Assembly: GCA_029978705.1 (NCBI GenBank)
Contig: JAPOIY010000007.1
Span: 1-64,000 of the forward strand
Length of the DNA stretch: 64,000 bases
Direction: 5' to 3'
From: Actinomycetota bacterium
GTDB taxonomy: Bacteria; Actinomycetota; Actinomycetes; S36-B12; GCA-2699445
The notes beneath the pieces were generated by a model. That model saw only the letters and a list, made by a program, of their open reading frames with translations, did not search any database and was not told where the DNA came from. This document shows positions 19,509 through 23,010 of this stretch, one piece after another. Numbering within the stretch: position 1 is the stretch's first letter; every line of letters starts with the position of its first letter. Both the position numbers and the translations under genes were made by a program.

Positions 19509-20440
19509 CTCCCTTGTCCGCGATCGACTGCGGGACCAACTCCATCCGCCTGCTCGTCGCCGAGGTCGCCGACGGTCACCTGGTGGATCTGGACCGGCGG
19601 ATGACGGTCGTGCGCCTCGGTGAAGGGGTGGACCGCACCGGGGTGCTGTCCGACGCGGCGCTGGCGCGTACCTTCGCGGCCTGTCGGGAGTACGGCGAGG
19701 TCCTCGCCTCCCTGGCCGCCGCACCCCCGCGCTTCGCGGCGACCTCGGCCAGCCGCGACGCGGCCAATGCCGAGGTCTTCGTCGCCGGGGTCCGCGAGAT
19801 CCTCGGCGTCACCCCGGAGGTCATCTCCGGTGAGGCCGAGGCCTCCCTGTCCTTCACCGGGGCGACCCGGGGGCTGCCCCACGAGGAGCCGGTGCTCGTG
19901 TTCGACATCGGTGGCGGGTCCACCGAGTTCGTCCGGGGCGCGCACGCTCGGGTGCAGGCGTCGGTGAGTGTCGACATGGGCTGCGTGCGGTTCCACGAGC
20001 GCTACCTGACCTCCGACCCGGTCCCCGCCGCCGAACTCGCGGCGCTGCGGGACGCGGCCGACGCGATGACGACCCGGGCGCTGGCTGCCGTTGACGTGTC
20101 CGCCGTGCGCGATGTCATCGGGGTCGCCGGGACGGTGACGACGGTTGCCGCCCTCGCCCTGGGCCTACCCACCTACGATGCGGCCGCCATCCACGGCAGC
20201 CGGATCCCGGCCGCCCACGTCGCGCGGGTCGCCGCGGACCTGGCGGCGCTCACGCTCGCGGAACGCACGGCCCTGCCGGTCATGCACCCCGGGCGGGCCG
20301 ACGTCATCGTGTCCGGTGCGACCATCCTGGACACGATCATGCGCCGCAGCGGCGCGGAGTGGCTGTTGGTCAGCGAGCACGACATCCTGGACGGCCTGGT
20401 GTGGTCGCAGCTGCCGGATCAGCCGAACGCGAGCCAGTAG
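19505..20440 (+). CDS. Ppx/GppA family phosphatase (exopolyphosphatase)
   Basis: AIDCGTNSIRLLVAEV...LVFDIGGGSTEFV...GVAGTVTTVAALAL. Confidence 0.92.
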   Translation: MTPLSAIDCGTNSIRLLVAEVADGHLVDLDRRMTVVRLGEGVDRTGVLSDAALARTFAACREYGEVLASLAAAPPRFAATSASRDAANAEVFVAGVREILGVTPEVISGEAEASLSFTGATRGLPHEEPVLVFDIGGGSTEFVRGAHARVQASVSVDMGCVRFHERYLTSDPVPAAELAALRDAADAMTTRALAAVDVSAVRDVIGVAGTVTTVAALALGLPTYDAAAIHGSRIPAAHVARVAADLAALTLAERTALPVMHPGRADVIVSGATILDTIMRRSGAEWLLVSEHDILDGLVWSQLPDQPNASQ

Positions 20441-23010
20441 GCGACGAACACCAGGAACACGTACACCGGGTACCCGATCCGCATCACGCGGTCCAGGGTG
20501 CGGACCCGGGACAACTGCCGGTTGTCGGACAGATGTCTCCCGATGAGGGTGGCGACGATGCAGATGCCCGCGAGCAGGATGAACGCGTAGTAGGACCATT
20601 CGATGGCGACGGTGTAGTCCACCTGAGGCAGCGAGCCCGTCACGCTGTTGAGCATCACTGCTCCCGTGAGGATGCCGGTGACGCCGAAGGCGACGCGGGC
20701 CGGGGCGTCCTTGTAGGGGTACCACAGGGAGAAGTAGACGACGATGGTCAGCAGCAGCAGCGGCAGCAGGTTCTTCACCAGGAAGGACGGAACGTCGCGG
20801 GAGATCTCCGTGCTCGCCGACATCTGGGAGAAGGTGACCCCTCCCGAGGCGGCCACCCCCGGATCCCCCAGCGCCCAGGTGTTGCCGACGCTGCCCGGGT
20901 AGAAGGCCACGGCGTCGGCCTGCCAATTGGGGACCTCATCGATGGTGGCCGTGGCGTCGGTGCCGCTGCGCAGCCTCTCCTCCTGCGACTGCTGCAGGAC
21001 ATCGGGGTCGACGACGTAGGTGATCTGCGCCGCCGTGAGCTGGCGGTTCTGGATCGTCACCGGCAGGGTCTGGGTGTCGAAGGGGAAGTCGTTGAAGGCC
21101 ATTGAGGCGCGGAACGTGCCCTTGACGCGGAACAGCTGGTACTCCTCACCCTCGGTCTGCGAGACCCGCTCCGGCTCGGCCAGGGCCAGGGACGGGTCGA
21201 CGGCATTGACGAACTCCACGTCGGTGGGCGCGCCGGACCCGCCGTCGAACTTGAACCAGATGAAGAAGTCAGCCGAGAAGGACTGCGTGGCCGGGTCGAG
21301 TTCGGAGATCTGGTTGATGTTGAAGCCCGTCGAGACGACCCGCTGGATGGTGTAGAAGGTGCCATCGCTCCGGAAGGCCCACCCGCGGTCGATCTGTTCG
21401 TCCACCGAGACACCGGCCTCCTCGGTGTACGGCGAGATCTGGAACGGCGACGACTGGATGAGCACGTCGCCGGACCCCGAGACGTACCCGCGGTCGAACG
21501 CCGACGTCCGGACGGCGGCGTTGCCGGCGTCGAAGTACAGCGGGCCGGTGATCGTGGGCAGCGCCGTCTCGGGGCTGCGGGCCAGGTTCCACCGGTCGCG
21601 GATGGTCTCGCGGTCGCCCACGAGGTCCTTGGTGCCCCAGGTCGCGGCGCCGTCGATCAGAGCGTCGGTGATCGCGTTGACCGCGTCGTAGGTGGTTCCG
21701 GCCGTCCAGCCGGGGGAGTAGCCCAGAATGCCGAACAGCTGGTCGTACAGGTCCACCGCGGGACCGTTCAGAGTGCCCGCGTTGAGAGGTGTGGCCGCCT
21801 GTACGCGCCGCAGATGGTCGGGGTCGGCGGCGGCCAGGCCACGGAAGAAGTCGGAGTTCGCCAGGGAGTCCCCGACGACCACCGGTGCTGTCACCTGCAG
21901 CCGGTCGAGCTCGTCGAAGAACTCCTTGCAGTCGGGGTCGAGGGTGGCCAGCACAACCTGATCCGCGTCACTGCGCGCGACTGCCCGGGCCGCGGCGACG
22001 AGCTCCCGGTCGCGGACCGCCGGGACCGCGTCGGCCGTGAGCGTGACCGTGTCGAGCACCTTCGGCCGGAATCGGTCCCCGTACAGCCGCGTCGGCTTCG
22101 TGTAGGCGTCGCGGAAGCCCTCGCTGATCGTGGTGCCGTAGGAGTCGTCGGTCGCCACGATGACGGCGCGCCGGGTCTCCTCCGCGCCGAGCGCGTACAG
22201 CGCGATGTCCTTGCCCTGCTGGGTGTTGTCGAACACCGACCGGAAGTACCACGGCCGGTTCTCCGTCACGTTGTCTGCCGTGGCCGCGGGCGTGATGGCC
22301 GGCATCCCGGCCGCGTCGTAGATGGGGGCGGCGGCTTCGGACGTCCTGCTGTACGAGTGGCCGATCACGGCCACGTAGCGCCCGTCGTCGACGATCTCCT
22401 GCGCGACCGCGGCCGCCTTGGCCGGGTCGCCGTCGTCGTAGTAGGTGACGATCTCGATGTTCTGCCGGGAGGTCGCCTCGTACTGGTTCCAGGTGGCGGC
22501 AGCCAGTTCCGCGGCCGTCTCCTCCTCGGACTCCTGGCCGCCCGGAGTGGCCACCACCAGAGCGATGTAGGTCGTCTGGGCCCGGCTCAGTGACCACAGC
22601 GAGATGATCATGACGCCGATCACCGCCACGATCAGCACGACGCCGAGGTGCTGCAGCGTGCGCCTGCGCTTCTGCCGGCGCACCTCCTCCGCGTACCCGG
22701 TGATGAACTCGGGAGGGGGCGGGTCGATGATCGGCGACAGTTCGGGGGGCTGCTTGGCCTTCGCGCTTCCGAGCCGGCCCAGTGCCGGGATGGCCTTGTG
22801 CTGCGGATCCAGGTCCCGGACCTTCTGCAGGCAGAACTTCTCCTCGCCGGGGCTCTCCGTCACCGCCGCGAACCACAGCCAGGCCGGTTCGTAGTCGGGG
22901 TCCACGGCCAGCGCCTCGGCCAGGAGTGTGCGCGCGTCCTCGATGTCGCCCCGTTCCGCCGCGGCGATCGCCTGGCGCGTGCGCTCGGCTGCGAAGACCT
23001 TCTCAGCCAC
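20419..23010 (-). CDS. Fusion receptor: TPR-like N-terminus + TM + type 1 periplasmic binding protein domain + pentameric ligand-gated ion channel
   Basis: 863 aa in one uninterrupted frame: TPR-like ERGDIEDARTLLAEALAVDPDYEPAWLWFA; TM HLGVVLIVAVIGVMIISLWSL; ABC-receptor-like TTYIALVVATPGGQ...DDGRYVAVIGHSYSRTSEAAAPIYDAAGMPAITPAATADNVTE...; Pro-loop ASMAFNDFPFDTQTLPVTI; M1-M4 with M2 PARVAFGVTGILTGAVMLNSVTGSLPQVDYTVAIEWSYY. Confidence 0.9.
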   Translation of the reverse strand: MAEKVFAAERTRQAIAAAERGDIEDARTLLAEALAVDPDYEPAWLWFAAVTESPGEEKFCLQKVRDLDPQHKAIPALGRLGSAKAKQPPELSPIIDPPPPEFITGYAEEVRRQKRRRTLQHLGVVLIVAVIGVMIISLWSLSRAQTTYIALVVATPGGQESEEETAAELAAATWNQYEATSRQNIEIVTYYDDGDPAKAAAVAQEIVDDGRYVAVIGHSYSRTSEAAAPIYDAAGMPAITPAATADNVTENRPWYFRSVFDNTQQGKDIALYALGAEETRRAVIVATDDSYGTTISEGFRDAYTKPTRLYGDRFRPKVLDTVTLTADAVPAVRDRELVAAARAVARSDADQVVLATLDPDCKEFFDELDRLQVTAPVVVGDSLANSDFFRGLAAADPDHLRRVQAATPLNAGTLNGPAVDLYDQLFGILGYSPGWTAGTTYDAVNAITDALIDGAATWGTKDLVGDRETIRDRWNLARSPETALPTITGPLYFDAGNAAVRTSAFDRGYVSGSGDVLIQSSPFQISPYTEEAGVSVDEQIDRGWAFRSDGTFYTIQRVVSTGFNINQISELDPATQSFSADFFIWFKFDGGSGAPTDVEFVNAVDPSLALAEPERVSQTEGEEYQLFRVKGTFRASMAFNDFPFDTQTLPVTIQNRQLTAAQITYVVDPDVLQQSQEERLRSGTDATATIDEVPNWQADAVAFYPGSVGNTWALGDPGVAASGGVTFSQMSASTEISRDVPSFLVKNLLPLLLLTIVVYFSLWYPYKDAPARVAFGVTGILTGAVMLNSVTGSLPQVDYTVAIEWSYYAFILLAGICIVATLIGRHLSDNRQLSRVRTLDRVMRIGYPVYVFLVFVAYWLAFG
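20422..21408 (-). other. Approximate span of pLGIC extracellular domain and four-TM pore inside the fusion receptor
   Basis: Residues about 535-863: SADFFIWFKFDG beta strand, FPFD Pro-loop (21076-21087), M2 (20626-20703) PARVAFGVTGILTGAVMLNSVTGSLP, M3, basic loop, M4 IGYPVYVFLVFVAYWLAF at the C-terminus. Confidence 0.9.
21451..22575 (-). other. Approximate span of type 1 periplasmic-binding (Peripla_BP_6-like) domain inside the fusion receptor
   Basis: Residues about 146-520: two alternating alpha/beta lobes, AVIGHSYSRTSEAAAPIYDAAGMPAITPAAT, DSYGTTISEGF, DQVVLATLDPDCKEFFDELDRL, APVVVGDSLAN, GWTAGTTYDAVNAITDAL. Confidence 0.8.

Follow-up and report, generated by a model that had tools for sequence, protein, structure and literature searches.

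We analyzed a 64,000-nucleotide stretch of DNA (the window; positions 1 to 64,000 of contig JAPOIY010000007.1, assembly GCA_029978705.1) from a freshwater bacterium of the phylum Actinomycetota. The subject of this analysis is a gene at positions 20419..23010 on the minus strand of the window, which encodes an 863-amino-acid (aa) protein; all features of the gene described below lie on the same strand. The open reading frame (ORF) begins with a GTG codon, and a GAGGTGA ribosome-binding site is located immediately 5′ of it. It is flanked by a ppx/gppA gene and an ACT-domain gene, both on the plus strand, and because its 3′ end shares 22 bases with the convergent ppx gene, it appears to be monocistronic. 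A first-pass annotation of the DNA had proposed that this frame, whose position and length it gave exactly, fuses a tetratricopeptide repeat (TPR)-like domain, a periplasmic binding protein (PBP) and a pentameric ligand-gated ion channel (pLGIC). As documented by the ORF, its Pfam matches and full-length relatives in seven other genomes, the gene product is a single intact protein that consists, from its N terminus, of cytosolic TPR-like helices, a membrane helix, a type I PBP, a Pro-loop extracellular domain (ECD) and a pore of four transmembrane (TM) helices.

The Pfam search with the 863-aa protein placed Peripla_BP_6 (8.5e-16, residues 164 to 451), ANF_receptor (3.5e-12) and Neur_chan_memb (7e-8, residues 749 to 820) above the cut-off, which bears out the predicted PBP and pLGIC membrane domain. 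In agreement with these matches, phmmer against the PDB returned the transmembrane domains (TMDs) of glycine receptors (GlyR) and GABA-A receptors as well as the leucine/isoleucine/valine (LIV)-binding protein, each at ~1e-14. Hydrophobic peaks were found at residues 122 to 140, 740 to 766, 806 to 824 and 842 to 863.

The PBP domain (residues 144 to 520; 21451..22581) is of the LIV type. Peripla_BP_6 spans both of its lobes and reaches 9e-32 in the relative L005, the PBP profile of the family matched LivJ (3e-27), the LIV-binding protein (LIVBP; 2.6e-25) and, weakly, many metabotropic glutamate receptors (mGluRs), and the top Foldseek match was 4q6b, a leucine-bound substrate-binding protein. 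In alignments with LIVBP and mGlu1, S221 (22348..22350) corresponds to Ser79 of LIVBP and Ser165 of mGlu1, T244 (22279..22281) to Thr102 of LIVBP and Thr188 of mGlu1, and Y291 (22138..22140) to Tyr150 of LIVBP and Tyr236 of mGlu1. D381 (21868..21870) corresponds to Asp318 of mGlu1 and matches the Asp of the LivJ motif GGDGF, while N262 (22225..22227) is a conservative counterpart of mGlu1 Asp208. All these residues are unchanged in 8/8 copies of the protein. Judged from the alignments, the PBP keeps the Venus-flytrap alpha-amino-acid motif of LIVBP and mGlu1 (described in PMC2680970), with Asn replacing one Asp. Since the motif residues match LIVBP and mGlu1 and are invariant, an alpha-amino acid is the most likely ligand; its identity is not evident from the side-chain pocket. 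According to per-domain identity, the linker between the PBP and the ECD (residues 521 to 548; 21367..21450) is poorly conserved.

The channel part begins with the beta-sandwich of the ECD (residues 549 to 738; 20797..21366), for which the single-sequence search gave a Neur_chan_LBD value of only 0.1, whereas family profiles and a fold search recovered it. The ECD-only family profile matched GLIC at ~1e-5, and a profile of ECD plus TMD, which includes stand-alone actinobacterial pLGICs beside the fusion family, covered the whole of GLIC at 1e-27. A template-free AlphaFold2 (AF2) model of residues 545 to 863 (mean pLDDT of 54) retrieved, in Foldseek, GABA-A, glycine and GluCl receptors and a GLIC-GABAAR chimera over 325 to 370 columns; a full-length AF2 model built from a 6-sequence alignment reached a pLDDT of 48 and a pTM of 0.28. 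As the first-pass annotation had noticed, this beta-rich domain carries the Pro-loop core FPFD (residues 642 to 645; 21076..21087), which is invariant in the alignment of 8. P643 of the Pro loop and P750 of M1 are likewise invariant in 8/8 copies. No Cys-loop disulfide cysteines were found beside FPFD in the 863-aa protein in this alignment, and it is thus not an animal-type Cys-loop receptor. Compared with stand-alone actinobacterial pLGICs, loop F (residues 672 to 696; 20923..20997) is ~13 residues longer in the fused family; it is a candidate interface with the PBP or between subunits, where PBP motion could reach the ECD.

The predicted four C-terminal TM helices were supported by the above-cut-off Neur_chan_memb match, the alignment to GlyR and GABA-A receptors, the hydrophobic peaks and the AF2 helices; they constitute the pore M1-M4 (residues 739 to 863; 20422..20796), with the C terminus outside. 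The pore helix M2 extends from −2′ to 21′ (PAR VAFGVTGILTGAVMLNSVTGS; 20632..20703) in the alignment of 8, and its residues 773 to 793 were aligned by phmmer to the M2 helices of GlyR and GABA-A receptors in the PDB. It reads PAR-VAFGVTGILTGAVMLNSVTGS-LP, with Ala at −1′, Arg at 0′ and Leu at 9′. Throughout the family, and also in L013, position −1′ is Ala or Thr, 0′ is Arg and 9′ is Leu. No family member has an acidic residue at −1′ or −2′, and the selectivity Glu is missing. This argues for a predicted pore that is anion-type or weakly selective, as opposed to a classical cation filter.

At the opposite end of the protein, the TPR-like helices occupy residues 1 to 80 (22771..23010). AF2 modeled four helices at residues 2 to 67, which amount to about two helical repeats (pLDDT of ~65 to 74 up to residue 50, then ~50), yet the TPR_14 match (1.9e-4, residues 12 to 49) scored 22.2 bits, just under the cut-off of 23.5. 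They are followed by a conserved linker (PPEL..IIDPPPPEFITGYA) and a basic stop (RRQKRRR), which together span residues 81 to 118 (22657..22770) and show a positive-inside charge bias in the alignment of 8, and by the helix TM1 (residues 119 to 143; 22582..22656), with a Kyte-Doolittle peak of 2.67. Both TM1 and the RRQKRRR stretch are present as first annotated. We considered TM1 as a signal peptide and rejected this assignment, since the 8 relatives share no cleavage site and the 118 preceding residues are strongly constrained. We assign the TPR domain to the cytosol and regard TM1 as an uncleaved signal anchor because RRQKRRR precedes TM1, no cleavage site is conserved after it and residues 1 to 118 are constrained. 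The extra anchor helix thus appears to give a predicted five-TM subunit.

When the TPR module alone was searched against 60 related genomes, it was found in 8 of them, once in each and always at the start of the fusion protein (one instance is truncated by a contig end and another lies in the broken G014 copy). The TPR module is therefore a dedicated part of the receptor, exclusive to the fusion protein. Its strong constraint and its exclusivity are consistent with the earlier suggestion that it couples the channel to internal partners; no partner was identified. We encountered no description of a pLGIC bearing a TPR domain in the cytosol in the literature that we searched, which covers few subscription papers. 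The new element appears to be this strongly conserved cytosolic module together with its uncleaved anchor, confined to the fusion protein.

A survey of actinobacterial homologs, as the first-pass annotation had advised, revealed the whole architecture in an uninterrupted frame in 7 other genomes of the same order (families f1, f5 and f7), at 37 to 75% identity. Where titled, the relatives' genomes are freshwater-lake and other environmental Actinomycetota metagenome-assembled genomes. Three further genomes (G014, G106 and G017) contain broken or cut copies. The G014 copy (L021:6001-8566) is interrupted by an internal TGA codon and twice changes frame, is otherwise 43 to 56% identical and represents either a pseudogene or assembly indels. 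Patterns able to detect only close relatives, run against 84,980 species genomes, returned nothing but the fusion clade and one plain spirochaete PBP. Beyond the order, pLGICs of any kind are rare in the phylum: among 397 sampled genomes, 6 (one of them the genome of the window) encode them. The matched frames outside the order measure 160 to 408 aa, which is too short for a PBP, and when the whole protein was searched across the phylum, most matches were stand-alone PBPs. Stand-alone pLGICs (ECD and four TM helices without a PBP) do occur in Actinomycetota (L014, L009, L026-L032 and L049) and are 21 to 26% identical over ECD and TMD; in G055, a stand-alone copy accompanies a fused one.

Compared with the f5 and g18 relatives, the TPR domain is 70 to 71% identical (38 to 39% compared with g11), the PBP 45 to 48%, the ECD 57 to 61%, the TMD 60 to 77% and TM1 20 to 28%. 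In a congener pair, dN/dS was 0.14 for the TPR domain, 0.29 for the PBP, 0.19 for the ECD, 0.10 for the TMD and 0.52 for TM1. These values point to purifying selection on every folded domain. The pore domain, with 45% invariant columns, is the most conserved part of the protein. TM1 varies in sequence across relatives while its hydrophobic character is kept, and so the per-domain identity and dN/dS values suggest that TM1 is constrained as a generic helix and the TPR domain in the manner of a binding surface.

Among the relatives' loci that we compared, there was no universal operon partner, and synteny was kept only in the congener. Several neighboring genes were observed. A TetR-type regulator adjoins the receptor gene in f7 g18 (L018:4669-5877, minus strand), where it contains two TetR_N stretches, and in f5 g20 (L023/L024:4094-5311, minus strand). 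In g18, an aquaporin (MIP) gene lies directly downstream of the receptor gene, and in both g11 genomes a GAF-PAS-GGDEF-EAL gene (L019:3067-5829, plus strand) lies directly upstream on the same strand as the receptor, a possible link to cyclic-di-GMP.

On Azospirillum plasmids, a type I PBP and a pLGIC-type ECD are joined to an MscS channel in single proteins (L037:2422-5742; L038:2788-6159, WP_042444963.1; L039:2422-5739, assigned by similarity to L037; and L085:2148-5216, WP_012976639.1). Where annotated, these proteins are called 'ABC transporter substrate-binding protein'. Their MS_channel_2nd matches range from 1e-15 to 4e-18, and one of them has a C-terminal cyclic-nucleotide-binding (cNMP-binding) domain. 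Their ECD is homologous: the ECD alone gave 2e-9 against the whole plasmid collection, and the profile gave 5.8e-15 and 1.6e-9. With the PBP profile of the fusion family, one Azospirillum PBP scored 168 bits compared with ≤120 bits for the stand-alone PBPs fetched; two other Azospirillum PBPs do not stand out from these. As read from the domain matches, the pore beneath a Cys-loop-type sensor has been swapped in the Azospirillum fusions. The same PBP-ECD order on pLGIC and MscS pores, together with the 168-bit score, points to PBP-ECD as a portable gating cassette whose common ancestry is modestly supported. No report of an MscS, PBP and Cys-loop-type fusion was found in the literature searched.

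Collectively, we consider it fairly probable that the protein is a pentameric channel, probably of anion type, that is gated by alpha-amino acids and carries a docking module in the cytosol. Five subunits would assemble via the pLGIC ECD and pore. Outside the membrane, each LIV/mGluR-type Venus flytrap, whose motif is evident from the alignments, would close on an alpha-amino acid, and closure would shift the short linker and the ECD via the extended loop F and the Pro loop. The ECD movement would then open or bias the M2-lined, putatively anion-type pore. In the cytoplasm, the TPR-like domain, held there by the extra N-terminal helix, most likely docks a protein partner or aids channel assembly or localization, and the receptor may signal both by ion flow and by protein contact. 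A bolder version of this scheme, which we offer as speculative and rather doubtful, is a dual ionotropic and protein-coupled receptor, in which five flytraps would open an anion pore and also rearrange five TPR domains that recruit or release a partner, with the PBP-ECD cassette portable across pLGIC and MscS pores. Several points weigh against an amino-acid-gated channel of this kind. The TPR_14 match falls under the Pfam cut-off, there is no conserved operon partner, and the AF2 models are of low confidence (mean pLDDT of 48 and 54) and support, like the fold searches, the fold class but not the geometry. The −2′ Pro varies across the family (P, T, N, A or G), so that anion selectivity is only suggested by the alignment. 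A separate orthosteric ligand might bind the ECD itself, leaving the PBP a purely modulatory role like that of the N-terminal domains of ionotropic glutamate receptors (iGluRs), and amino-acid binding, current and pentamer are all predicted.

The last concern but one amounts to an alternative in its own right, possible although unlikely in our opinion: the PBP would be an allosteric modulator or scaffold, like the N-terminal domain (NTD) of DeCLIC or the iGluR amino-terminal domains, and would tune a channel that opens on an ECD-interface ligand, pH or Ca2+. The DeCLIC NTD alters gating kinetics and is not known as an agonist site (PMC12664993, PMC9897478), and the ECD, which keeps its fold, is better conserved than the PBP. 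However, a merely modulatory PBP sits poorly with an amino-acid motif that is invariant in 8/8 copies and with the occurrence of PBP-ECD as a unit on the unrelated MscS pore, which suggests that the PBP drives the channel. The signal might instead pass mainly through the cytosolic TPR domain, with the pLGIC as an oligomerization or membrane scaffold that has little or no ion flow. That the TPR domain is the most constrained soluble part in the congener pair and exclusive to the fusion protein fits this idea, yet a mere scaffold would not need the pore to be the most conserved part of all, and we regard it as improbable.

Two other readings carry far less weight. A role in chemotaxis was suggested for the family of bacterial ART-LGICs in 2005 (PMC549065), and the first-pass annotation had spoken of an ionotropic chemoreceptor. 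Neither CheW nor flagellin was found in the host genome, which is 100% complete, while both searches were positive in control genomes; we therefore rejected a flagellar-chemotaxis receptor, and a chemotaxis receptor as proposed in 2005 is very improbable. Finally, the host genomes are fragmented and probably metagenome-assembled, and the G014/L021 and G106 copies are broken, as might be expected if the protein were an assembly chimera or had a misannotated start, with its TPR or PBP part foreign to the channel. The first-pass annotation had itself named homologs split at one junction as the sign of a chimera. Against this, the protein is encoded full length in a single frame in seven other assemblies, and purifying selection acts on each folded domain, so that an artifact is scarcely conceivable.

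According to a 2025 paper on DeCLIC (PMC12664993), its NTD is the sole one among pLGICs to have been characterized even in part, and Jaiteh et al. in 2016 (PMC4795631) set extra domains aside and urged the study of such architectures. For the extra domain of the actinobacterial protein, the class of ligand can be predicted (alpha-amino acids) and the pocket residues are defined, which makes ligand-to-gate coupling across the PBP-pLGIC junction testable. The protein would represent a natural bacterial channel that pairs mGluR-type ligand recognition with a GlyR/GABA-A-type pore, and it provides a pLGIC with a cytosolic N-terminal domain along with a natural swap experiment, PBP-ECD on MscS.

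Its parts have known counterparts. The fold and the alpha-amino-acid recognition residues of the PBP are common to LIVBP/LivJ and the mGlu1 flytrap; however, LIVBP/LivJ is a soluble transport component and mGlu1 a domain of a G protein-coupled receptor, whereas the actinobacterial PBP is covalently joined to a channel and has Asn in place of Asp208. Animal iGluRs also couple PBP-like domains to a channel, by analogy, since that channel is not homologous: iGluRs form tetramers, and their unrelated pore is an insertion in a PBP-II domain, while the actinobacterial pore is the 4-TM pore of a pLGIC and no such inserted P-loop pore. GLIC shares the ECD and 4-TM Pro-loop channel but consists of this core only and is cation-selective, whereas the selectivity region of the actinobacterial protein is of the GlyR/GABA-A type. 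DeCLIC, another prokaryotic pLGIC, likewise has a large additional extracellular domain at its N terminus that influences gating; its NTD consists of two calcium-binding jelly-roll lobes, not a PBP, and no cytosolic N-terminal domain has been described for it. The closest systems are the fusions of PBP-I and ART-LGIC that Tasneem et al. reported in 2005 (PMC549065) in the alphaproteobacteria Magnetospirillum and Bradyrhizobium, drawing the parallel to NMDA and metabotropic glutamate receptors. The fusion and this parallel have therefore been known since then. Accordingly, gating by ligand capture in the PBP, as the first-pass annotation proposed, is supported by the anatomy of the protein but involves a fusion already published, and the convergence with animal glutamate receptors that it put forward stands by analogy, yet is not new. 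In these proteins, too, a type I PBP lies N-terminal to the ECD and four TM helices in one gene. By their description, they are set apart by an N-terminal signal peptide, with no TPR domain or extra anchor mentioned, whereas in the actinobacterial protein the PBP is preceded, with no direct signal peptide, by 118 conserved cytosolic residues and an apparently uncleaved TM helix.

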